DNA of 33,685 bases. Source: a virus. Shown here in pieces: positions 4,402 through 33,086 of the stretch. The translations under genes were made by a program, and so were the position numbers. Each line of letters opens with the position of its first letter. Within the stretch, counting starts at the first letter, position 1. Where the stretch lies: positions 1 to 33,685 of the IMG/VR virus record IMGVR_UViG_3300031673_000276; one strand, 5' to 3'. The notes under the pieces are model-generated. The model ran no database searches and was not told the origin of the DNA. It worked only from the letters and a program-made list of their open reading frames with translations.

Positions 4402-4815
4402 TTAATTCAAAACAAAGGTATTTCCATTGTATCGAAGTTTCACCGTGTTCGGAGTGTCAGGTGTCAGAATTTCATAGGTTCTCCCAATAGCACCTGAGTT
4501 TGTAATTGGTTCGGTAAATGTAATTGTAGATGAAGTTAATTCAATTCCCTCATATTGCATGGGAAAAAGTTGTACCCCCGTTATTTCACCCAAATCCCTG
4601 AGTTCACTCAGAGTCACAACATTACCATCGATGGTAATGTTAAAACGAGGATACTCCACTGTATTACCGTTAGTGGATACCCATGAGAGGTTCACCCAAT
4701 CAGGATATTGTTCTTCGAGTGTCTGGTCAGGAACAATCGGGTCGTCTTTGCAACAACTGGTGCTCATCAGAGCAACAGCAAACAGAATCGTCATTAAATA
4801 AGTTACTTTTTTCAT
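4402..4815 (-). CDS. Predicted surface lipoprotein (phage-encoded, function unknown)
   Basis: Protein of 137 aa with a lysine-containing N-terminus, a hydrophobic stretch at residues 5-17 (YLMTILFAVALMS) and a lipobox-like STSC ending at Cys21. The residues after it are C-K-D-D-P. In Bacteroidota, an acidic KDD-type signal just behind the lipidated cysteine marks export of lipoproteins to the cell surface. That signal was described in Capnocytophaga as QKDDE-like. The mature part is short, polar and beta-rich (LSWVSTNGNTVEYPRFNIT), with no enzyme motif. The gene is a single inverted unit between plus-strand structural genes, closed by its own terminator and with only a weak TATGTTTA element upstream (4832-4839). 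This layout is typical of a moron gene expressed in the infected cell. It could block adsorption of other phages, but nothing proves that. Confidence 0.7.
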   Translation of the reverse strand: MKKVTYLMTILFAVALMSTSCCKDDPIVPDQTLEEQYPDWVNLSWVSTNGNTVEYPRFNITIDGNVVTLSELRDLGEITGVQLFPMQYEGIELTSSTITFTEPITNSGAIGRTYEILTPDTPNTVKLRYNGNTFVLN

Positions 4816-17751: not shown

Positions 17752-18546
17752 ATGGGATATATTTATTCATTAATTGACCCTCGTGATAATAAGGTAAAAT
17801 ATGTTGGTCAAACAAGATTTAAATTAGAAAAGAGATACAAAGAACATTTAAGAAATTCTAAATATCAGGCAACAAAAAACCATAATGTTTATTGTTGGAT
17901 AAATGAGTTGGGTTTAAATGGTTTAACGCCAATAATTCAGAAAATTGAAGAAATTGATATTAAACAACTAAATAAAAGAGAAAAATATTGGATTTCAAAA
18001 TATGGTGATGATTTAAAAAATATGACTGTTGGTGGTGATGGAATTAAATATGTTAATAAGAGAAAGTTTTCCGACACACACAGAAAGAGAATCGGTGATT
18101 CTTGTAGGGGTGATAAACATTACAATTATAATAAACCAGCAAAAAATATAAAATCAGTTTTAATGTTTGATGTGAATGGAGATTTCTTAGAAGAATTCTC
18201 ATCAATTAAAATTGCATCAGAAAAAACAAAAATAAAATTATCTGGAATTAGTAATTGCTTAAATGGAAGAAGAAATTCGGCAGGTGAATATCTTTGGATT
18301 TTTAAAAATGAATTTACTGATGAATTTTTAAAAAAGAAAGTTTTGAATTCGAAAATCAATCCGACCAATAAAAGAAAAAGTATTAGTGTTTTAAAAATTA
18401 ATATTGAAACAAATGAAATTGTTGAGGAATATCAATCATATAAAGAAGCAGCCAGAATGAATGGAACATCAGATGTTACCATAAAATATGTTTCTCTTAA
18501 AAGTAAAACACATATATTTAATAATCATAAATGGTTAATAAAATGA
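17752..18546 (+). CDS. GIY-YIG homing endonuclease with NUMOD domains
   Basis: Free-standing selfish endonuclease of 264 aa, comparable to T4 Seg proteins. The GIY-YIG core begins at residue 2 with GYIYSLI, and YVGQT follows at residues 17-21, close to the usual spacing. Arg29 in KRYKEHL and the Glu in LNKREKYWISKYG match catalytic positions. A NUMOD3-type DNA-binding motif is at about 100-115 (RKFSDTHRKRIGDSCRG). Two NUMOD1/IENR1-like repeats follow (about 138-180, and 215-262 with EEYQSYKEAARMNG). Codon use is more A-rich than in its neighbours, consistent with recent insertion. It lies in a 64-base spaced slot after the helicase and is coupled by ATGA to the zinc-ribbon gene. No intron or interrupted gene is visible beside it. 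Confidence 0.93.
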   Translation: MGYIYSLIDPRDNKVKYVGQTRFKLEKRYKEHLRNSKYQATKNHNVYCWINELGLNGLTPIIQKIEEIDIKQLNKREKYWISKYGDDLKNMTVGGDGIKYVNKRKFSDTHRKRIGDSCRGDKHYNYNKPAKNIKSVLMFDVNGDFLEEFSSIKIASEKTKIKLSGISNCLNGRRNSAGEYLWIFKNEFTDEFLKKKVLNSKINPTNKRKSISVLKINIETNEIVEEYQSYKEAARMNGTSDVTIKYVSLKSKTHIFNNHKWLIK

Positions 18547-18723: not shown

Positions 18724-19023
18724 ATGGAATGGATAGTTAAAATAGAAGAAACAAAAGACCAGAAAGACCAGAGAATCAGAATAACATTCAATCCGATTCT
18801 GGAACTCATTCATTTCTTTGGTGAGTGTAAATTAAAGAATAACAATTGGACAGTCTTTAGTCAAGACAGTCATAAGATGGAAATTAGTTTGGAACAAATC
18901 CAAGAAAAAATGGAAGTCGTTGTTAAAGACATGAGACTAAGACTCAAGGAATATGAGAATCTCGATAAAGGATTTAGTGTTCTTAAATGGGTTGCTTTTG
19001 AGGAAGACGTTATTGATGATTAA
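18724..19023 (+). CDS. Hypothetical protein
   Basis: Protein of 99 aa, not recognised. It begins MEWIVKIEETKDQKDQRIR with a beta strand and charged segment, followed by an FNPILELIHFFGE strand-helix and a C-terminal helix with EQIQEKMEVVVKDMRLRLKEYE. It looks soluble and acidic. It is last in the plus-strand helicase cluster and runs 14 bases into the convergent minus-strand gene, with no terminator between them. Confidence 0.65.
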   Translation: MEWIVKIEETKDQKDQRIRITFNPILELIHFFGECKLKNNNWTVFSQDSHKMEISLEQIQEKMEVVVKDMRLRLKEYENLDKGFSVLKWVAFEEDVIDD

Positions 19024-20069: not shown

Positions 20070-21752
20070 TTACACTAAGTCACCAATTCCGAAAGTCTGA
20101 AGACCATCACAGTAGATTCTACCGTAATATCTGTTCAATACCATTTTCTTTGCATAACGAGTCATGATACCACGAATCGGAGTGAAATCGAATGGGTTGT
20201 ACATTACAGGAGTTAACTGCATAGGCACGTAAGGAGCATAGATGTAACCTGTTTCCAAGATACTTGTTCCTTTATGACCAATAAGCACTGTGTTAGCAGG
20301 TGAATAAGGGTCACGATATACCAAGTAACGTCCACTTAAAGTACCGATTTTCTCAATACCCATGTTGTACTTATCCTGCTCTGGAGCAGCATTAGATACG
20401 TGGAAATACTCAAGGTCATCAAATACAGCAGATACTTCAGGAGATACAACTACCCAAGATGCGCCACCACGAAGGGTTGCCTTGTGAATTTGTGCTGAAA
20501 TCTGGTTGATTTTAGTAACCAATGTCTGATTCCAGTCCTTCTGTACACCATAATAAGTGTTAGTTCCTTTACGGAGTCCGTTATAATCCCAACGAGCAGT
20601 CCAAGCAGCACCTCTACGAAGGTCACGAAGAATCTCACGGTCAATCTCAGCAGCCATTTGCTCTGACAATAAAGCAGTTAATTCTGCTTCAGCATCAATG
20701 TTATGGAATGCTGACACGTCTTGTGCCAATTCAGGTGTCCACATAGCACGCATTTTACGTGTTTCAACTGAAACAGTAACTTGGTCTAATTGGAAGGTAA
20801 CTTCAGCCATTCTTGAATCTTCTTCAAGGTCGCTGTAAGTTCTGTAACTGTAAGTGAATGCAGGAGTACTTGCACCACTCATAGGCTGATAACCATTAGT
20901 ACCTGCGTAACTCACGTCAACAAGAAGAACTAAATGTCCTGTTTTGTCAACAATTGCCTGTCCGTATTTCTGAACCTTTACATTGAAAGGAAGAGCATCA
21001 CCAGCAGTGATACCTTCGCTTGCATAAGGAGCAGGAGCGGTTAAATCAACTGTTGCCACAACCTGTAAACCAGCAAGGAATGATTCAGTGTCCATAGGAA
21101 CACCAGTCGGTCCGACCAATTTACCTTCTTGAGTTGAATAAATGCCATCAATTGTTATTGTTACATACTTATCAACACCAAGAACCCAAGTAGATGCAGT
21201 AGTTGCACCAGTTACAACAGTGATGTCGCCTTTTGAACGGTCAAACAATGATGTACCTTCTTCATTATACTCAGTTGCATAGAATGCATCGTACAATGAA
21301 CGAGTTTCGAACTGTGTTCTTGAAGTAGCAGCTTTATCAGCAGCGTTGCCATAAGCACCATCTGGAGATGTGTGTAGGTCACCCGGAGTTGTTGTAGTAG
21401 TAGCACTTTCTACTCTTACACTTGTCTTTGGGTTTATGTAGTATAACTTACCAATAGGTAGGTTAAGTGCCTGTACAGACACGATATCATTTGCTAATAA
21501 TTTAGCAAAAACTCTTCGGATTACAGGGAATGCAACTGTTTCAAACTGACCACTGTTTGCTGAATCTGACGACTCATTAATCATGTGTGAAAGTTGATTC
21601 TCGAATAACTGAGCACAGTTTTCTTTTACATTACCTTCTAATCCTTCTAACAAACCAATCTTTTCCCAACGATTGCTTGTTATTTCTCTTTGTTCACGGA
21701 GTTGCTTCAAACCAATGTTACCAACTTCCGCACTTTCCATTAAAAATCCCAT
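20070..21752 (-). CDS. 23: Major capsid protein, gp23-like
   Basis: Forms the icosahedral head lattice. The precursor is 560 aa (T4 gp23 is 521). The early part RWEKIGLLEGLEGN parallels T4 KWKPLLEGEG. The conserved core opens with FETVAFPVIRRVFAKLL and ANDIVSVQALNLPIGKLYYI (about 70-106), matching T4 V-x-x-M-V-R-R-x-x-P-N-L-I-A ... GVQPM-x-x-P-T-G. The C-terminal AKKMVLNRYYGRIYCDGLQT also fits. A candidate maturation site INE|S (58-61) corresponds in position to T4 LTE|A at residue 65 and would leave about 500 residues. A second possible site is LLE|G (34-37). It follows the scaffold gene by 22 bases on the same transcript and is followed by a strong terminator. No late-type motif lies directly before it, so it probably uses upstream promoters. 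Confidence 0.95.
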   Translation of the reverse strand: MGFLMESAEVGNIGLKQLREQREITSNRWEKIGLLEGLEGNVKENCAQLFENQLSHMINESSDSANSGQFETVAFPVIRRVFAKLLANDIVSVQALNLPIGKLYYINPKTSVRVESATTTTTPGDLHTSPDGAYGNAADKAATSRTQFETRSLYDAFYATEYNEEGTSLFDRSKGDITVVTGATTASTWVLGVDKYVTITIDGIYSTQEGKLVGPTGVPMDTESFLAGLQVVATVDLTAPAPYASEGITAGDALPFNVKVQKYGQAIVDKTGHLVLLVDVSYAGTNGYQPMSGASTPAFTYSYRTYSDLEEDSRMAEVTFQLDQVTVSVETRKMRAMWTPELAQDVSAFHNIDAEAELTALLSEQMAAEIDREILRDLRRGAAWTARWDYNGLRKGTNTYYGVQKDWNQTLVTKINQISAQIHKATLRGGASWVVVSPEVSAVFDDLEYFHVSNAAPEQDKYNMGIEKIGTLSGRYLVYRDPYSPANTVLIGHKGTSILETGYIYAPYVPMQLTPVMYNPFDFTPIRGIMTRYAKKMVLNRYYGRIYCDGLQTFGIGDLV

Positions 21753-23416: not shown

Positions 23417-24133
23417 TTATAACAAGAATTTATCAATTGCTGTAATAATTTTACCCTCGTCTTCCTTAAGTAAAATGCCGTTTTTACTAACATAGTGTTC
23501 ACCAAAACTAACATTACCTTGTTTTTCTGGGAAAAGAAATGCACCCGGGGTGCTTGGCGTTGCTACCAAATCAAAACCAATTAATTCAAAATCGTCCTGA
23601 ACCATATTCTCACCATTAATTTCCTTTAATGTTCCAACACCACGACTCGAAATACCTAACTTGATTTTATTCTGTAAATAAAGAACAATCTTATCACCAA
23701 CAACAGAAACCACACCGTATTTGATGTATCCGGGCGATACAATCAATTTCAATTGACCATATAACACGTTTTCTTGTTCACCTTTACCCCACCACATTTT
23801 GGTAATCATGTGTGAGATGTTCTGTAATGAAATGATTGATGAGTCGGGGTGGTCGGCTTCAGATACCGCACTATTGGCACTAACGAGTTCCTGATACATG
23901 TCAACTTGTGGTACTAATACTTCTCTGGAGTAGATACGACCATTTTTGTTTTTAACACCCCATTTCTGTAAAATACAGTTAACTAATACAGGTTCATTCG
24001 GTTTTAATTCAAAGTTTTCATTAAGAATATCTTTGTTGATTTCAGAACTTACGTATCCAGCATCGGATTCGATTAATATACCGAATCCCGTATCGCCTTC
24101 CTCTAATATCCTGCTTAATTGTTTCTTTAACAT
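23417..24133 (-). CDS. 21: Prohead core protease, gp21-like
   Basis: Serine protease of the herpesvirus/T4 assemblin type that processes head proteins. It is 238 aa (T4 gp21 is 212). The catalytic regions are visible: SEADHPD with His95, KLGISSRGVG with Ser162/Ser163 as nucleophile, and the following DFELIGFDLVATPSTPGAF, which matches the conserved block of the family. Residues 18-75 (KNKNGRIYSREVL) fit the N-terminal strand and loop pattern N-x-N-G-R-I-Y/F. It sits between the candidate core/small genes and the scaffold, the same order as T4. It has its own motif variant CTATTTATA 23 bases upstream. Its N-terminal ILEEG may be a self-cleavage site. Confidence 0.93.
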   Translation of the reverse strand: MLKKQLSRILEEGDTGFGILIESDAGYVSSEINKDILNENFELKPNEPVLVNCILQKWGVKNKNGRIYSREVLVPQVDMYQELVSANSAVSEADHPDSSIISLQNISHMITKMWWGKGEQENVLYGQLKLIVSPGYIKYGVVSVVGDKIVLYLQNKIKLGISSRGVGTLKEINGENMVQDDFELIGFDLVATPSTPGAFLFPEKQGNVSFGEHYVSKNGILLKEDEGKIITAIDKFLL

Positions 24134-24852: not shown

Positions 24853-27800
24853 ATGTCAGAAAAAATAGAATCAAATGGTAATGTAATACTCATAGAACCG
24901 AACTTAGTTAATGTCAATGAGAATATTGTTAATGGCATACCTCAATATCAGGATATGTATATTTTTGCTGAACTAACTGCAAAAAGCAAGGGAAGAACAA
25001 TTATTATTGACGGAAACACCAATAGCACGAAGTCCAAAATAATTAATTTTATTGGAAACGACCAGAACAATGAAGACCTTAATAACCCAAATTATCTGAA
25101 CTTCACTACAAATTATTATGAGGGAAGTACTGGTGACAAAACTCATTATGAAGGTTTTGGTATTAATAACATTAAAATCGTTATTAATTCGTCATTTATT
25201 CCACAGGTTGATATTCAATTCGTTGACATAAGGGGTCTGGCATTTTTCAATCAAGCCGATTCACCATATAGAATTTTATTTGATTTCCCACCACCAATCT
25301 TTACGCTGACAGTAAAAGGATATTATGGTAAGCCATTAACATATCAATTACATCTTGTTAAATATACCAGCGAATTTAGTGCTGCAAACGGTAATTTCAT
25401 TATCGATGCTCAATTTGTTGCCATGACCTTTGCACCATTATCTGATATTTTATTCAGATATGTGGTAAATACCCCCTTAATTGGTAATGAGGCATCGATG
25501 AATCCAGAACCGGGGTTTGCACCAACAAACACATACGAATTAATATTAAAATTAAAAAATCTGTATGCTGCGGTTAGAAAAAAATTGGATACTGATGCCG
25601 AGAATATCAAATATAAAAACATATTAATCGATATTGAGAAAATCGATTCAACGTTTGAGATATTGAAAAAGGAAAATTATAAGGAAAATGAGATATTAAA
25701 ACCTGCTGGCACGCCATGCTTGATTACAAGAACACCAGACCCAAACGATGGGTTATTAATTTTTCCACAAACCAATTCAGTTCCCCAAGATAAATTAACT
25801 GTAATTAATGACTTGTCCGAATATAATGAAATCATTAAAACTCAGAACTCAAGTGGTATTGATAGTAGGATAAAAGATAGATTATATATGGTTTATCTTG
25901 TTGCCACAAACGTTAAACAAGAAGACAATACAGAACCACCAAATACATTGGAAACACTACAAACAGCCTTTGAACACGATACTGAGAATGATTCTAACTT
26001 TGAAACCCCATTATTAAAATTCAAAGACCAGTTACTTAGTGAAAAAATATCATCAATCATTTCTGATGATGACGATATTATAGCACCGAAATCATTTCTT
26101 AACGCATATAACATTGTGACTGGAGTAAAAAGCAAGAACCCAAACTTATTAGTTTCATTAGATGGGTATGTCAAGTATTATGGTATGGATATTAGTGGTT
26201 TTTACCAGAAACTATATAAGAAAAAAACAGAATTAGAAATCGAGAAAAACACACTGTCTTTAGATATTGCAATAAAAATTAATGCTATGGTTGAGGAAAG
26301 GCTCGGTATGATACCATCGATTTATAACATATTTGAAATAATTCTAAATGATGTTGATAAATTTTTTGGTAAAATAAAAGCAACATCAAATAAAGCATAT
26401 GACTCACACAAAGAACCTGCTAATAGAAAGATAATTCTTAATGATAGTGATTATGCTGAAAAAAAGGACGAAGATACCGAAATTTTTGCATTTCCGTTAG
26501 TTATTAACACATTAAGTAATCGACAAGAACGTGTTGCCCCAATTGCTTTAAGTAAAAAAGTTCCTTTTCCTGAACTTGAACTTGTTAGTGATTTTATGGA
26601 TACATTTTTAATTCAAAACAGATATGCGAAACAAATAAATGCAAGAGCAAACCAAAATGATGATGGAACATTTAAGTGGATACCAATATCACCATTTGAT
26701 TCAACGCTTGGTGGCGCAACTCCTGAAAGTCCATATCTGGGTATTAGTGATGATATACAAACCGAAACGCTAAACATAATCTTAAAACGTTTTTACATGC
26801 TAACCCAAGGTACGATTCCAGAAGCATTCTATCCCGATGAATTCGGTAAAAGAAACAAGGTGAAGGAGAATTATACCCGAAGTAGTGCATATTTAAATCT
26901 ATATTCGAAATCCGAAGCAATTAATTTAGAATCAACGTTAGTATCAAAGAATAATGCCAATGCACTTAAAATCATGGCAGATAAATATAGTAAGTCAATA
27001 GAGACATTCTATAGGGACATTTCTGGAATTACTACCACCTATAATTCTGATTCTGGAGAAGTTACGGGTTCATTGTATGATTTTCCCCAATATGACCCAG
27101 AATATTTTTTAATATCACCATCAAGTGGAAGTGAGGGAAGGGTTTATGTAGATAAAACCGACCCCGGTTTTGAAGGTCTTAAACTAACCAATGAAGATAT
27201 CGGTCTCCAAACTCTTAGCGAAAACACCAATAACCCCGTTGATAATTTTAAAGACGAAATCAAAATCAGTGGATTTTGGGGTAATAAAAGTAGTGCTGAA
27301 TACTATTTCGACTTCACAGAACAAAATCTTCTATATTTGAGAGACAAAACAATTAAGAAGGGGGTTAATATAATAGATTATAACGGAGAAATTCGAACAT
27401 ATTCAAGATATTTATCAGGAAGAAATTATTATTATGCGGATTTAACCATTAGTGGAGCACGTCATGGTGAGGTGAAAGATTATTATACTGCTTACCCGGG
27501 CTGGGAAAATAAAAACCAAACCGATGCACAGAGACAACAAATCGCATATACTCAAGGTAATGGTGCTTTTAAGGAAGTGATAGATAGTGAGGGAAAACAA
27601 CTGGATTATGGTGCTGACATAATTGGTATTTGGTCAGAACAATTAGGACAATACGATTCATACATTATTGATGACATCACAGGTACAACACAATTAAGTT
27701 CGATGATAGTTCTTTCAAATTTCGGTTATACCATTAGTCCATTCAACAAATTCCCAAACCTATTGAACACACTTGTATTTGACACACCATCAGCAATTGA

Positions 27801-30228
27801 AGTCCCAGCATTTTATTCTGCATATGTTGGAGCATTAATTACCGCAGAAGAACAAGGTTGGATGGATGATGTTGTGGATTTTTTCACAATCAATGGTGGT
27901 AGTTATCTTGATAATCGTGGTTTTTTCGTCTTGGCAGATGCGCATGATGCAAATCAATACTTATCCGTTAAAGATAAGGAAAAATTCAAGAGTGCATATA
28001 TGACATATATGACTATGCATGTTGATATCGTTAGGGAAATTAAGGACATGTATGGTTGGGTTCACGACAGTAGAAATGCTGCAATTAAACCCGATTACGA
28101 TACATATAATGGTCATGAAAGAACCTTATATTCATATTTTCTTAACCAAAACGGAAATGTTAGAAAAGACGTTAAAGGAAATAAGGGAATGTTCTTTAAT
28201 GTTATTGCTAATTTAATTGTTAGGGAGAGTATCGTTAATTACAGCCAAATAACGTTTCAAATGTCTAATATCATTCCACCATATCCTGCTGGATACACCC
28301 CAATTAAAACATTAAATCAAAACTCACTGACTGTTGGTGGTAATAAATATATTAAAGAATTTAATGATAATTATTTCATAAACCTATTCACAAGCCTAAG
28401 TACTTTGATTTACGAAACCGATAAGAAATTAAAAGAAGAGGAAGAAGAACTGAAAAAAGTAAAAGGTGATGCTAACATTATAAATCAATTATATTATTCG
28501 TTTAAGAATATCAATGATAAGTGGTTAACGGGAACAGCCAAAGGTAAAATGAATTATCCTTTTAGTAAAGGTGATGATTCAAAATTAATTGATTCATTTG
28601 CTTTTGTTGACAGAGGAATGAATCCAATCGGTGAAACCATACTAAATGCTGAAATTCTTGGTGATATGTTGGATGACCCAAATATTAGTTTATGGTCAGT
28701 ATTGTCACAATTAATATCTTCAAACGGTTTCGAGTTCTTCCCACTCCAAAACTTTTTGAGTTTTAAAAACGAAAATAGTTGGGAAGATAGTTTCAAAATA
28801 CATACTGGTGGGTACGATGATACCCAAAATCCATTCTTTGTGGTTATGTATATAGGTGGTTCTTCAAGCTATCCATCTGTTTCTGGAAACGGTTTTGAGA
28901 ATGACGGTATCATTAATATCTTAGACCCGGGCGCAGGTTTTTCTGGAGACGATTCTGGTATGGAATACGAAGAGAATCAGAATCAAGAAAAAATTGAAGA
29001 TTTTCCATTCCGTGAAGTCCGTGCATTTAGAGTTAGATTCGGGGAACAGAATCAATCCATGTTCACCGACATTAAAATTGACAGCAAAGAATATCCAGAA
29101 ACCAACGAAAGTATTCAAATTCTGTCAAGACTGGCTGGTGACCAGAACCCAGATGCACCCGTACCTATAGGACAAAGCCTATATAATTTATATGAAAACA
29201 GGTCATATAAGGCAACTGTTACTGGCTTCGGAAATGCCATGATTCAACCAACACAATATTTTCAATTAGAAAATATTCCATTATTTAATGGCGCATATGT
29301 TATTTTAACTGTTGAACACAATATAACGGCAAATAAAATGACAACGAGTTTTAGTGGGACTAAACTAACAAAATATCCGATGCCAAGAGTATTAACCCCT
29401 GTCGCATTTACGAGTTATGATGGATTATCTGGTGGTGATGCCGTTAGAACAGCACTTAATACCGCAAATCTTGCTAAAGGCATGACATCTCTAAGAGTTC
29501 AAGGAACTAAAACGGAAGGTGGATTGGATAGTGAATTAGGTGTTGACGTATCACACCATAATGGGAACGTTGATTGGAAAAAAGCGAAAGCGAATAACGT
29601 TAAATTCGCAATTATTAAACTTACTGAAGGTAAAACATGGTATGATGGTGACACCAGTAATTATGTTGGTCAATATAATTTAAATAAAAATATCGCAGAT
29701 GCGCTTGCAAATGATATCATTGTTAGTTATTATCATTTTGCGAGATTCGGAAGAACAAGCAGTCCAACAATTGACGGACAAGATGATGCAAATAATTTTA
29801 TCACGCATTTGAATCCTTTACCTGAAAAACCTAAAATACCAGTTGTGTTAGACCTTGAAGAAGATTGTTTTAATAGTGACGATAAATATAATTGGGGAGC
29901 AATATCGAACCCCAATACGAGTATCAACGAATACACTCAAGCATTTATTGAAACCATGACAGCGAGTAATTATGATGTTATGATTTATTGTCGTACTGAC
30001 CTTGTTAAGAAATGGAATTTATATAATTATAGCAAGTATCCTTTCTGGGTAGCAAGATATATGGATTTAAGAAGAAATAATCCAGAAGTCGATGAACCAA
30101 CAATTCCAAAAGAATGGAAAAACGGTTGGACTGCATGGCAGTTTACACCAGCAGGAATGATTGATGGTGTTCGTGGTAATGTTGATTTAAATGTAATGAA
30201 AAAGGGTTTTATTGAGAAATATACTTAA
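24853..30228 (+). CDS. Baseplate hub protein fused to GH25 lysozyme
   Basis: Multidomain tail-tip protein of 1791 aa. Residues about 110-195 (FIPQVDIQFVDIRGLAFF, then PPPIFTLTVKGYYG) look like the first hub domain found in T4-like large baseplate proteins. The long middle is beta-rich, with one helical charged insert near 1195-1205. At about 1390-1550, VRFGEQNQSMFTDIKIDSKE and FQLENIPLFNGAYVILTVEHNI match gp27/gpD-like hub domains. The C-terminal ~230 residues are a GH25 muramidase: GVDVSHHNGNVDWKKAK (Asp1565), IIVSYYHFARFG, PVVLDLEED with Asp1667 and Glu1669, and WTAWQFTP. It would puncture the envelope and cut peptidoglycan during infection. T4 uses separate gp5 (GH24 lysozyme) and gp27. 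It lies alone on the plus strand inside the late minus-strand block, with its own late-type motif. Confidence 0.88.
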   Translation: MSEKIESNGNVILIEPNLVNVNENIVNGIPQYQDMYIFAELTAKSKGRTIIIDGNTNSTKSKIINFIGNDQNNEDLNNPNYLNFTTNYYEGSTGDKTHYEGFGINNIKIVINSSFIPQVDIQFVDIRGLAFFNQADSPYRILFDFPPPIFTLTVKGYYGKPLTYQLHLVKYTSEFSAANGNFIIDAQFVAMTFAPLSDILFRYVVNTPLIGNEASMNPEPGFAPTNTYELILKLKNLYAAVRKKLDTDAENIKYKNILIDIEKIDSTFEILKKENYKENEILKPAGTPCLITRTPDPNDGLLIFPQTNSVPQDKLTVINDLSEYNEIIKTQNSSGIDSRIKDRLYMVYLVATNVKQEDNTEPPNTLETLQTAFEHDTENDSNFETPLLKFKDQLLSEKISSIISDDDDIIAPKSFLNAYNIVTGVKSKNPNLLVSLDGYVKYYGMDISGFYQKLYKKKTELEIEKNTLSLDIAIKINAMVEERLGMIPSIYNIFEIILNDVDKFFGKIKATSNKAYDSHKEPANRKIILNDSDYAEKKDEDTEIFAFPLVINTLSNRQERVAPIALSKKVPFPELELVSDFMDTFLIQNRYAKQINARANQNDDGTFKWIPISPFDSTLGGATPESPYLGISDDIQTETLNIILKRFYMLTQGTIPEAFYPDEFGKRNKVKENYTRSSAYLNLYSKSEAINLESTLVSKNNANALKIMADKYSKSIETFYRDISGITTTYNSDSGEVTGSLYDFPQYDPEYFLISPSSGSEGRVYVDKTDPGFEGLKLTNEDIGLQTLSENTNNPVDNFKDEIKISGFWGNKSSAEYYFDFTEQNLLYLRDKTIKKGVNIIDYNGEIRTYSRYLSGRNYYYADLTISGARHGEVKDYYTAYPGWENKNQTDAQRQQIAYTQGNGAFKEVIDSEGKQLDYGADIIGIWSEQLGQYDSYIIDDITGTTQLSSMIVLSNFGYTISPFNKFPNLLNTLVFDTPSAIEVPAFYSAYVGALITAEEQGWMDDVVDFFTINGGSYLDNRGFFVLADAHDANQYLSVKDKEKFKSAYMTYMTMHVDIVREIKDMYGWVHDSRNAAIKPDYDTYNGHERTLYSYFLNQNGNVRKDVKGNKGMFFNVIANLIVRESIVNYSQITFQMSNIIPPYPAGYTPIKTLNQNSLTVGGNKYIKEFNDNYFINLFTSLSTLIYETDKKLKEEEEELKKVKGDANIINQLYYSFKNINDKWLTGTAKGKMNYPFSKGDDSKLIDSFAFVDRGMNPIGETILNAEILGDMLDDPNISLWSVLSQLISSNGFEFFPLQNFLSFKNENSWEDSFKIHTGGYDDTQNPFFVVMYIGGSSSYPSVSGNGFENDGIINILDPGAGFSGDDSGMEYEENQNQEKIEDFPFREVRAFRVRFGEQNQSMFTDIKIDSKEYPETNESIQILSRLAGDQNPDAPVPIGQSLYNLYENRSYKATVTGFGNAMIQPTQYFQLENIPLFNGAYVILTVEHNITANKMTTSFSGTKLTKYPMPRVLTPVAFTSYDGLSGGDAVRTALNTANLAKGMTSLRVQGTKTEGGLDSELGVDVSHHNGNVDWKKAKANNVKFAIIKLTEGKTWYDGDTSNYVGQYNLNKNIADALANDIIVSYYHFARFGRTSSPTIDGQDDANNFITHLNPLPEKPKIPVVLDLEEDCFNSDDKYNWGAISNPNTSINEYTQAFIETMTASNYDVMIYCRTDLVKKWNLYNYSKYPFWVARYMDLRRNNPEVDEPTIPKEWKNGWTAWQFTPAGMIDGVRGNVDLNVMKKGFIEKYT

Positions 30229-31004
30229 AGTAATTCCTTTTTGAATTCATGAAGTCCGATAATGTTGTCATCAACAGTTTTTCGGTCATAAACCATTTCC
30301 TTGATTTTCAAAATGGCTTTAATAATGTTATCCCGAACATTCACCTTATCGATTCCCTCTAATATTACAAGAGTTTCAGTTTTGTAGGTCTCAAGAAGTG
30401 TTTGTTTTTCCTTAGTAGTCGATTTGATAAGTGTTTTCAATAAATCCTTATCGCCTTCATCAAGTGAAGCATATTTTTCATTGAATTTGCCAACGGCAAT
30501 TTCGATAACGTCTTCATTAATTGGTTCTACATCAACGTTTTCAAGTAACGCTTTTTTCGGTTCTTTAATGTGATTGAAAACCAATGTAAATGATTCATGA
30601 ATGGCATCAACATCTATTTCATCACTAACTTTCAGGGATTCGGTGATAAGAGTATTAATCGCAGCATATAATTGCACCTTTTCATCGTCAAGGGGAAGGA
30701 CGGCTTCACTAATGAAAGGATTTAATTTCTGACGTTCAGCTTCTATTTCCTCAACGGTATATACTTCAAATAATTTGATATTATTGTCGACATATTCTTT
30801 AGCAAACAATTCGTTCTCAATGTGCTTGCCTTCAATATTATTATAGACTTTAAATTCCAACTGAAGAATTGGTGAACTTTTAACAACCTCAAAAAAATCA
30901 AAAGCGATTTTCTTTGATTCTCCAATCAAGTTGTCGTTGAAATACGACTCATTTAATTTATTGGAAATTATCAAATTAGCAATTCCTATGTTGACGTTTT
31001 TCAT
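30225..31004 (-). CDS. Candidate prohead core protein (gp67/68 position)
   Basis: Protein of 259 aa, highly charged and helical (IHESFTLVFNHIKEPKKAL, SLDEGDKDLLKTLIKSTTKE, IKAILKIKEMVYDRKTVDD), without known domains. The N-terminal 40 residues contain two sites of the T4 protease type, LNE|S (17-20) and IGE|S (27-30). The gene lies between portal and the gp21 region, the slot of T4 prohead core genes 67 and 68. Composition (acidic, helix-rich, no membrane segment) fits a core protein lost on maturation. It ends convergently with the hub gene with overlapping stops and is led by a late-type motif (31024-31032). The assignment is by position, composition and sites, not by similarity. Confidence 0.6.
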   Translation of the reverse strand: MKNVNIGIANLIISNKLNESYFNDNLIGESKKIAFDFFEVVKSSPILQLEFKVYNNIEGKHIENELFAKEYVDNNIKLFEVYTVEEIEAERQKLNPFISEAVLPLDDEKVQLYAAINTLITESLKVSDEIDVDAIHESFTLVFNHIKEPKKALLENVDVEPINEDVIEIAVGKFNEKYASLDEGDKDLLKTLIKSTTKEKQTLLETYKTETLVILEGIDKVNVRDNIIKAILKIKEMVYDRKTVDDNIIGLHEFKKELL

Positions 31005-31085: not shown

Positions 31086-33086
31086 CTATTCGCTTAAGTC
31101 AATGTTTTCAATATCCTCAATGTCAATATCTTGCACTTCGTTAATTTTTTGTTGGGTGTTAATAGTTTCAGTATCTTCCAATAAATGGTCTATTTCGGCA
31201 ATCATATCAGCAGCACCCTTATTTAATTTATCGTTAATCTTGTTGTTTTCCTGAATAATCTCCTTCTGTTTAATCTTTTTCTTTTGTTCAGGTTCTTGTG
31301 TACTACCATAAACAAGTTTTTCGACCTGTTTAATATATTCTTCTTCACTCATTTTGGTTTCCATCAATGGAGCACCGCCACCAAGTGGAGCACCACCTAA
31401 TGGAGCACCAGCTTCAGCACCGCCCATAGGTGCACCGCCCAATGGTTCACCACCGCCTAATGGTGGCATTCCTTCACCGCCCATAGGTGCACCGCCTTCA
31501 GGTGGCGTTCCACCTTCGGTTTCACCAGTCATCGCCATGTCTTCAATTGGCTCACCGAATCTCTTATCAATATCGGTAAATAAACCAGATTTCTTAATTG
31601 TAACTGGTGAGTCTTGAAGTTCTTGCATAACAACCTTTTCCATTTTCTGTTGCTTCAAATCATCAACAATTTCTCTGTCACTCATATTGAAAATCAGGCG
31701 TTTTGCTGTTGTATGAGACATTGCTGCAATACCACCTTCACCACGTGTTAATTCAGTGTATGTCTGTGCTTTATCACGCATTAATTCAGACTTCAGCAAT
31801 TCCTGCTGAGTACTTGGGTTTGTAAGTGTGAGTTGAAAACCACTTAAATCTTCACCACTGTAACCCAATAGATACAAATGAATCATTGCCATTTTATTGA
31901 GTTCCTGAATCATTGCTTGTTGAATACGATTGATTTTCTTAGCAAATCTAATATCGTATTGTGCCATATTTTTACCAGCACCAGCAGCGTCTTGGAAACT
32001 CAGGAATGGTTTTGGAACACCGAGACCAACAAATAAATTGTCTCTAAGGTATTCAATATCTTGTATTTGGTCGAGATTCGTTGCGCCCGGGAGCGTCTCA
32101 ACACCCGTTTGTGTGTTTGCATTTCTTACTGGAAGAAAATAGTCTTCGTCATTACCAAGAATGTTGAAACGATAATCGATTTGACCATCATTTGGTGATA
32201 CCTGTGCTGTTTTTTTGAACATGGTCGAAACCTTGTAGATGTATTCTTCGATATCGTCTTCATCGATATTTCCAACATCGATTTTAAACACCTTTTTCTC
32301 GCCAGCACGGATAATACGGTAGGTAAGCATAGCGTCTTCAGCCATAACCAACTGACGGAATACCCTACGAACCTTATTTAAAATCGATGAACCATAAGGT
32401 AAATACTTATCGTCTCCAAGTAATCTGAAGTGAGCGATTTCAAAAACATTGAATTCATCACCAGTCATTCTTTCCTTGAATTTCACCAATGGTTTGCCGT
32501 TTTGTATCCTTTCAAACCTCTCAATTTCGTAATTCACGAGTTGTTTTACATGGGTAATACCTTTTTTTCTCTCACCGTAAAGCAATACGAAATTATCACC
32601 ATATTTAACTGTGTTTCTCACCCAGAAAGGCAAGTTAACATTCACATTCACAATGTCATAGAAGAATTCTTCTAATAACATCTTTATTCTTTCCTTATTG
32701 GAATATATGTTGAGCATTTTACCATTTAATCCAATGGTTGTTGCTTCTTCCATGAATAAATCCAATGCACTACTGATAATTGGATAATATTCCATACCCT
32801 CATAATCAATATATGCTGGGAGTCTGGCTGCTTCATATTGCAATGCTTTCTGGAAACCTCTATCGGTTGTACGGAAGAATTTGTTTTGAAGTTCACGCTT
32901 TTGTTCCAGTTCCAGACCCTTTTTATGTATTTCTTCGGGAGTGTTACCTTTAATAACAATTTTAGATTTCTGTGGTGTTGCTACGGGAGCAATTGGTGAC
33001 GATTCTTGAAAGCCAAAGCCATCAAGATTTAGCATCTTATTAAGTTGTTGGTATATCGTCCCTTTATTTTCGTTTTCGCCAGCCAT
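31086..33086 (-). CDS. 20: Portal vertex protein, gp20-like, with Gly/Pro-rich C-terminal region
   Basis: Forms the dodecameric portal through which DNA is packaged and to which the neck attaches. It is 666 aa (T4 gp20 is 524). Family blocks are LPAYIDYEGMEYYPIISSAL and NLPFWVRNTVKYGDNFVLLY in the N-terminal half. The block IQDIEYLRDNLFVGLGVPKP, then the GKNMAQYDIRFAKKINRIQQ helix, is characteristic of T4 portals. The C-terminal ~150 residues are extra. About residues 519-573 form a repetitive Gly/Pro/Ala/Met/Leu section (GGAPLGG, GGAPMGG and variants), followed by a charged helical tail ending in an acidic stretch (EVQDIDIEDIENIDLSE). A late-type motif lies 32 bases upstream and a second one between this gene and gp17. 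Confidence 0.95.
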   Translation of the reverse strand: MAGENENKGTIYQQLNKMLNLDGFGFQESSPIAPVATPQKSKIVIKGNTPEEIHKKGLELEQKRELQNKFFRTTDRGFQKALQYEAARLPAYIDYEGMEYYPIISSALDLFMEEATTIGLNGKMLNIYSNKERIKMLLEEFFYDIVNVNVNLPFWVRNTVKYGDNFVLLYGERKKGITHVKQLVNYEIERFERIQNGKPLVKFKERMTGDEFNVFEIAHFRLLGDDKYLPYGSSILNKVRRVFRQLVMAEDAMLTYRIIRAGEKKVFKIDVGNIDEDDIEEYIYKVSTMFKKTAQVSPNDGQIDYRFNILGNDEDYFLPVRNANTQTGVETLPGATNLDQIQDIEYLRDNLFVGLGVPKPFLSFQDAAGAGKNMAQYDIRFAKKINRIQQAMIQELNKMAMIHLYLLGYSGEDLSGFQLTLTNPSTQQELLKSELMRDKAQTYTELTRGEGGIAAMSHTTAKRLIFNMSDREIVDDLKQQKMEKVVMQELQDSPVTIKKSGLFTDIDKRFGEPIEDMAMTGETEGGTPPEGGAPMGGEGMPPLGGGEPLGGAPMGGAEAGAPLGGAPLGGGAPLMETKMSEEEYIKQVEKLVYGSTQEPEQKKKIKQKEIIQENNKINDKLNKGAADMIAEIDHLLEDTETINTQQKINEVQDIDIEDIENIDLSE
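31360..31530 (-). repeat. Gly/Pro/Ala-rich tandem-like repeats in portal
   Basis: On the minus strand the portal gene encodes repeated GGAP[LM]GG-type units in this stretch. On the DNA level the plus strand shows recurring GGTGCACC / GGAGCACC segments. The repeats are imperfect and in frame. Confidence 0.8.

Follow-up and report, generated by a model that had tools for sequence, protein, structure and literature searches.

Does this locus encode a T4-type piercing device drawn into a single chain, or a hub that carries its lysin in some other arrangement? The DNA analysed (hereafter the window, 33,685 nucleotides) comprises positions 1-33,685 of the IMG/VR record IMGVR_UViG_3300031673_000276, a genome fragment. 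An earlier note had read P0001, the product of its plus-strand gene at 24853-30228, as gp27 and gp5 in one chain, with a GH25 muramidase placed at the end. From the results described below (features in Table 1), we consider it likely that P0001 serves a contractile, T4-like phage as its baseplate hub, with a C-terminal virion-associated peptidoglycan hydrolase that constitutes an exchangeable cassette.

Table 1. Features of the hub-lysin gene and its neighbours in the window
Feature	Residues	Positions	Strand	Basis or remark
Hub-lysin ORF (P0001)	1-1791	24853..30228	+	1791 aa, ATG to stop
Putative tail-tube/gp27 domain-1-like barrel	31-191	24943..25425	+	Model and VIA-align
Large middle region, mainly helical in model	192-1194	25426..28434	+	
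Strongly conserved C-terminal hub core	1195-1520	28435..29412	+	Alignment A2
Variable linker, cassette exchange region	1521-1561	29413..29535	+	
GH25 muramidase domain	1562-1791	29536..30225	+	Pfam match and 1jfx alignment
w259, right border of cassette		30225..31004	-	259-aa convergent gene
T4-type portal (Gp20)		31086..33086	-	Portal_T4, E 6.3e-61
Prohead protease		23417..24133	-	Peptidase_S77, E 1e-16
Major capsid protein Gp23		20070..21752	-	Gp23, E 1.3e-73

The Gp20 portal, Gp23 and S77 prohead protease place the window among T4-like phages, as a distant relative. The tail part of the genome lies outside the window, and gp25/gp6 wedge and tail tube genes were found in the relative G004. 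The hub gene had been described as standing alone on the plus strand within a minus-strand block, and this holds: between 19010 and 33685 the remaining plus-strand ORFs of at least 80 aa are short and nested within longer minus-strand ORFs, and a 99-aa plus-strand ORF (18724-19023) only just enters that stretch. This layout is conserved, since the hub gene runs antiparallel to w259 in 80/80 distinct hubs and to the prohead protease in all 54 loci that contain the protease. With Pfam and PHROG at E<=1, the w259 product gave no match. Chimaeric assembly is an unlikely source of the fusion, because the same 1791-aa protein recurs unchanged on another contig (L002, which may stem from the same sample) and because a fused GH25 was seen in 36 distinct hubs. 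The head-gene region of the window also holds a GIY-YIG endonuclease with NUMOD motifs (17752-18546, plus strand), and weakly related ORFs adjoin the protease gene in L007, L017, L019, L025 and L029; this suggests that the GIY-YIG-type ORFs of this region are free-standing homing endonucleases.

The placement of a GH25 domain at the extreme C-terminus of the 1791-aa chain was confirmed. The Pfam profile Glyco_hydro_25 matched residues 1564-1773 over its full length (1-180 of 180; E 1.3e-30), and alignment with the solved muramidase 1jfx (E 2.5e-14) paired D1565, D1667, E1669 and D1778 with D9, D98, E100 and D198, which we take to be the catalytic acids of 1jfx. All four acids are retained in each of the 36 distinct GH25-bearing hubs. 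On the basis of this alignment, the GH25 domain of P0001 would be expected to hydrolyse peptidoglycan.

For the remainder of the chain, an AlphaFold2 model of residues 1-1200 was built on 22 sequences. Its mean pLDDT was 69, with values per block of about 30-59 over most of the first 215 residues and of 32-59 per 10-residue block in residues 31-191. Foldseek returned no PDB match under E 0.001 with this model; 15 of its first 20 rows were phage tail or injection-system entries, including T4 gp27. In VIA-align, residues 31-191 fell on hub and tube barrels: 9f4a_BE gave a Z of 8.0, 2z6b_D 7.1, T4 gp27 (1k28_D) 7.0 and the pyocin R2 hub (6u5h_A) 6.5; among the matches listed 8.0 was the best score and most lay at 5-7, a Z below 8 may reflect a common arrangement alone, and the rows compared were Foldseek's own candidates. 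By title, at least 47 of the 50 rows among the matches listed were phage tail or neck, gene-transfer-agent or injection-system proteins. Given the range of Z and the origin of the rows, we assign residues 31-191 to a hub/tube-type barrel with moderate confidence. Two matches in BFVD fell under E 0.001, with identities of 18% and 15%, one of them being named 'Lysozyme' (Myoviridae sp. ctPuP5, E 9.8e-16); both are probably relatives.

The hub-type N-terminal and central region proposed in the earlier note is thus upheld, with that moderate confidence, for residues 31-191, but the central stretch of about 1000 residues has no assigned fold: matches to the N-terminal barrel took up the VIA-align list, which barely reached residues 192-1194. 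Of the two ends of the chain that had been put forward for structure prediction, the first yielded the putative barrel, whereas residues 1195-1791 were poorly modelled except for the GH25 domain, with pLDDT mostly under 50 in residues 1195-1520. Because the AlphaFold model is poor there, the fold of residues 1195-1520 is one that we infer, and we presume it to be a second hub barrel. In tblastn against 50,697 phage records, neither the hub N-terminus nor the core had a match at E<=1. Against PDB sequences, a profile of the hub N-terminus (A3) had a single match, to a glycoside hydrolase at E 0.18, and a profile of the C-terminal part (A2) had none at E<=5. Neither profile matched LR756508, Mel-JY01, LR756511, Flavobacterium immuto, RM378 or Lak-C1, six records picked for capsid or spike similarity and searched without a positive control; hmmsearch and hhalign of A2 and A3 on the fetched parts of these records gave noise only. 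In L092 and L205 (contig 3300018020_000031) the hub is a shortened 973-aa ORF with the N-terminal match upstream at the same locus, which we attribute to a frameshift, an insertion or a sequencing error.

Tubes, initiators and hubs all occur among the barrel matches, which are thus generic, and the tail region of G004 encodes a 1084-aa protein that may also have a tube fold, so that P0001 might be a different baseplate or tail-tip protein of the tube initiator or wedge type, in which case GH25 would still be a virion lysin. We consider this unlikely: besides T4 gp27 and the pyocin R2 hub, the VIA-align rows include Mu-type hub relatives (3d37_A, 3cdd_E), and we know of no C-terminal enzymes on tube initiators. 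Hub-type proteins with C-terminal enzymes are, in contrast, described elsewhere (parts of PMC7048315 and PMC11406892).

Taking P0001 as a hub, a single chain that unites a complete gp27 plus gp5 device, bears the enzyme at its end and needs no spike gene of its own would account for the presence of a hub-like N-terminus and a muramidase in the same protein. However, no OB-spike or needle family (Gp5_OB, Gp5_C, Phage_base_V) was found in P0001 with Pfam at E<=1, nor was any T4-type octapeptide tandem ([VI]xG spaced by 8) or DNA tandem repeat, in agreement with the earlier observation that needle repeats are missing from the chain. The combination seen in T4 gp5, an OB domain and a C-terminal beta-helix in the lysozyme-bearing chain, is not found in P0001. 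Relatives of the window instead hold a separate OB-domain spike candidate of 295-297 aa (297 aa in G004, a 365-kb record, where it lies near the tail tube gene and gives weak OB-domain matches). The gene was found in 11 of 12 long records, the exception being a 128-kb fragment, and in 8 of 16 records of mixed length, with 62-69% identity to the G004 copy in the other seven; it is absent from the window fragment. Phage_base_V was matched at E<=1 by all seven aligned candidates (best 1e-4; 0.12 in the first member), and the PHROG 'baseplate hub subunit and tail lysozyme' at E<=0.1 by five of the seven (best 2.6e-7), the first member covering only positions 17-65 of 868 in that profile. No enzyme family was found in the candidate family, and it had no PDB match. 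Searches of 12 records for the PAAR and Gp5_OB families returned nothing, Gp5_OB matching no control either.

The spike candidate likewise lacks T4-type octapeptide repeats, so a needle, if there is one, would be built differently, and the role proposed for the candidate rests on its OB matches and its proximity to the tube gene. Nearly all long relatives have this separate gene, and searches of its product revealed no enzyme domain; a gp27-gp5 fusion is therefore not supported, and we regard it as highly improbable. What survives of the earlier proposal is a hub-type N-terminus (with moderate confidence), an enzyme at the extreme C-terminus, a chain lacking needle repeats and an arrangement that differs from that of T4. 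A better statement is that the lysin is carried on the hub rather than on the spike and is an exchangeable cassette. A gene for a 135-aa protein (L050:888-1295 and relatives, 59-75% identical to the G004 copy) stands just before the spike candidate in six of eight loci, in some with one small ORF between; the protein has no Pfam match and, judged by eye, is a candidate for the spike tip.

The state of the enzyme slot was compared among relatives. Loci were taken from a first search (28), from the best 80 of 119 and from the best 80 of 186, and because these were best-ranked matches, the proportions are biased toward relatives of the window. After removal of rows whose core did not reach near the profile end, 164 hub rows represented 80 distinct hubs: 36 had a fused GH25, 39 were split, 2 had M15, 2 had M23 and 1 had a weak lysozyme/GH19-like domain, the M15, M23 and GH19-like types being assigned by hand. 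The lysozyme/GH19-like tail, in L130, matched Phage_lysozyme2 (E 0.0034) and GH19 (E 0.03), both below the cut-off. In the first search, 22 distinct complete hubs (9 with GH25, 1 with M15 and 12 with a short tail) were obtained from the 28 loci, and an extra plus-strand gene lay directly behind every one of the 12 short hubs. This downstream gene matched SLT in 6 and Glucosaminidase in 4 of 12 members at E<=0.1, and the Pfam cut-off was passed by L008, L074 and L095, which points weakly to a transglycosylase-like (SLT) product. An SLT-like gene was next to each of the 39 split hubs (38 by profile and L137 by eye); M15 is additionally present in the SLT-like genes of L010, L075 and L190, and Amidase_2 in those of L024, L078 and L095.

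By comparison, among the 72 GH25 rows (36 distinct), no same-strand ORF of at least 60 aa starts within 400 bp past the stop. The fused and split states are therefore mutually exclusive. The stop of a GH25 hub lies a median of 2 bp from w259 (range -4 to 87, n=36), and that of a split hub a median of 880 bp (range 822 to 1820, n=39). Eight of the 12 long records (114-365 kb) contain the SLT gene, every one with a split hub; it is absent from G004 (GH25-fused) and G003 (M15-fused), and also from G010 and G023, whose hubs run off the contig end. A programmed frameshift that would join the short hub to the SLT gene was considered and set aside on visual inspection, as the two reading frames are related differently at different loci. 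At L015 a fused M15 hub is followed directly by a second, separate M15 gene (L015:15017-15547); this locus breaks the simple picture of fused or split hubs, and perhaps represents an intermediate in cassette exchange.

Trees of the hub indicated that exchange has been repeated. In a tree of 80 rows, built from the hub core with the enzyme left out, the split label has to change 15 times, at least 10 times on starred (supported) branches, compared with 26.9 for shuffled labels. A quick tree of residues 1-700 (57 rows) gave 12 changes, at least 8 of them forced, compared with 18.8 for shuffled labels; L028 forms a long branch in both trees. Breakpoints are visible in the DNA. In all five unfiltered pairs of a split and a fused hub, similarity stops 56-165 nt before the stop of the short hub and restarts -10 to +51 nt from the stop of the fused hub. 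L131 and L132 share 84% identity across the 4.8 kb preceding the break and 78% beyond it; for L094 and L107, identity beyond the break is 94%. Breakpoints near the 3' end of the hub gene, together with a restart at the fused stop, indicate that whole cassettes were exchanged. We base the breakpoint claim on these five pairs, because a larger list gives 14 of 1393 pairs and had passed a filter for matches with an end close to the stop; for two of the 14 (L014-L107 and L073-L107) similarity restarts 220-251 nt away. As a cassette, the enzyme slot runs from where the hub core ends to the w259 stop codon.

That the C-terminal enzymes are lysis endolysins fused to an adjoining structural gene and acting only in lysis, as the common use of GH25 as an endolysin domain and the stand-alone GH25 genes in 4 of the 12 long relatives might suggest, is very unlikely, since an enzyme of one of several classes occupies the slot in 80/80 distinct hubs and the split-hub records G017, G018 and G020 also hold a stand-alone GH25 elsewhere.

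The stand-alone genes (225-240 aa; L209-L212, in G010, G017, G018 and G020) lie far from the hub and probably encode the lysis endolysins. Their products start with 'S(K/Q)xR(L/I)xxLxCVLGLDCS'; at the corresponding place many fused hubs have the similar 'ERLxQLNSVYGIDVS', but the hub of the window has 'EGGLDSELGVDVS'. In a GH25 tree, the hub domains and the phages' own stand-alone GH25s cluster apart (97/95) from six other phage GH25s, a small outgroup sample. The fused GH25 may thus be related to the stand-alone GH25, a possible source. The end of many split hubs, 'NSMYxFKIQ', resembles the start of the fused-GH25 junction. With a register chosen by eye beforehand, and with 27 of the 39 split tails and 34 of the 36 GH25 junctions included (every third row for the permutation), the junction-peptide score was reached in 0/2000 column permutations; of 313 positions scored, the junction ranked first in 5 of 11 GH25 hubs and among the best six in all 11. 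We offer only as a suggestion that this end could be a remnant, a docking peptide, or both. More speculatively, the hub might be a standard socket for interchangeable wall enzymes, with a tail that serves as the start of a fused GH25 or, in hubs with an early stop, as a short peptide docking the separate SLT-like protein in the virion. This peptide would be what remains of the first strand of a GH25 once fused there, and whole cassettes would be recombined at this fixed point to match the host peptidoglycan; we hold this extended scheme to be possible but rather doubtful.

For a hub-borne lysin, the most likely sequence of events would be as follows. By analogy with gp27, three copies of P0001 would assemble into a tube-like hub at the tip of the tail tube, and a separate OB-domain spike without an enzyme domain, whose gene is seen in relatives, would sit below it. 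Upon contraction the spike would open the outer membrane and the hub would enter the periplasm, where the tethered GH25 domains could cleave glycan strands and so allow passage of the tube. In relatives, the same slot contains GH25, M15, M23 or a weakly assigned lysozyme/GH19-like domain in frame, or else an early stop followed by a transglycosylase-like gene; the split enzyme would most likely do the same work in the virion as a subunit of its own.

C-terminal lysins have been described on other hubs; the present case is probably a hub-borne lysin of a T4-like clade, in which the exchange of enzymes is unusually clear. Among the open-access papers surveyed, largely by title and abstract, none was seen to describe a GH25 hub in a T4-like phage or an exchange between fused and split states. 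Siphophages such as 80alpha have a non-contractile tail, and to our knowledge 80alpha-type Tal systems have no separate OB-fold spike. The Tal protein of 80alpha, gp59, resembles P0001 as proposed here in combining a gp27-like N-terminal hub with a C-terminal hydrolase domain, but that domain matches GDSL/SGNH hydrolases, with predicted activity, whereas P0001 carries GH25 (from part of PMC7048315). The available sections of PMC11406892 describe Deep-Blue Gp189 and Vp4 Gp110 as hub ectolysins of Bacillus myophages with measured lytic activity. As proposed for P0001, these are central hubs of contractile phages with a C-terminal peptidoglycan hydrolase and a separately encoded, membrane-piercing spike; unlike P0001, they carry an NlpC/P60 peptidase, and their phages have a Gram-positive host, and those sections describe no exchange with a split downstream gene (PMC11406892). 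The related hub A511 Gp98 is without a C-terminal hydrolase (same sections of PMC11406892). T4 itself shares the Gp20/Gp23-type head genes with the window. Its gp27-gp5 complex, as far as it is covered in an excerpt of PMC3004832, has the parts proposed here, a tube-like hub, an OB-fold spike and a muramidase at the tail tip, although its lysozyme lies in the middle of gp5 and the GH25 described here lies on the C-terminus of a hub-like chain. VgrG is similar to the hub proposed here as a hub-containing tail-tip protein with varied C-terminal catalytic domains, but has hub and spike in a single chain (excerpt of PMC3004832), whereas here the hub and the spike candidate are separate genes. A C-terminal CHAP domain is reported for the tail enzyme of phage K (part of PMC3207973).

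The individual parts of P0001 (hub, GH25 and C-terminal tail lysin) are familiar. The clade, known almost only from environmental contigs, offers a sequence-rich natural experiment in which the same hub scaffold bears several enzyme types, fused or separate, exchanged repeatedly with visible DNA breakpoints. This makes it possible to test which enzyme properties suit a contractile tail and how the enzyme docks. A single Bacteroidota MAG contig was the sole confirmed match in a search of 84,980 genomes, weak evidence for Bacteroidota as the host; L208, from the same search, is of the split type and stands outside the counts for the 80 hubs. Elsewhere in the window, a 137-aa protein (4402-4815, minus strand) has a lipoprotein-like start, judged by eye, and a 165-aa ORF with a similar lipoprotein-like start is present at the corresponding position in G004.
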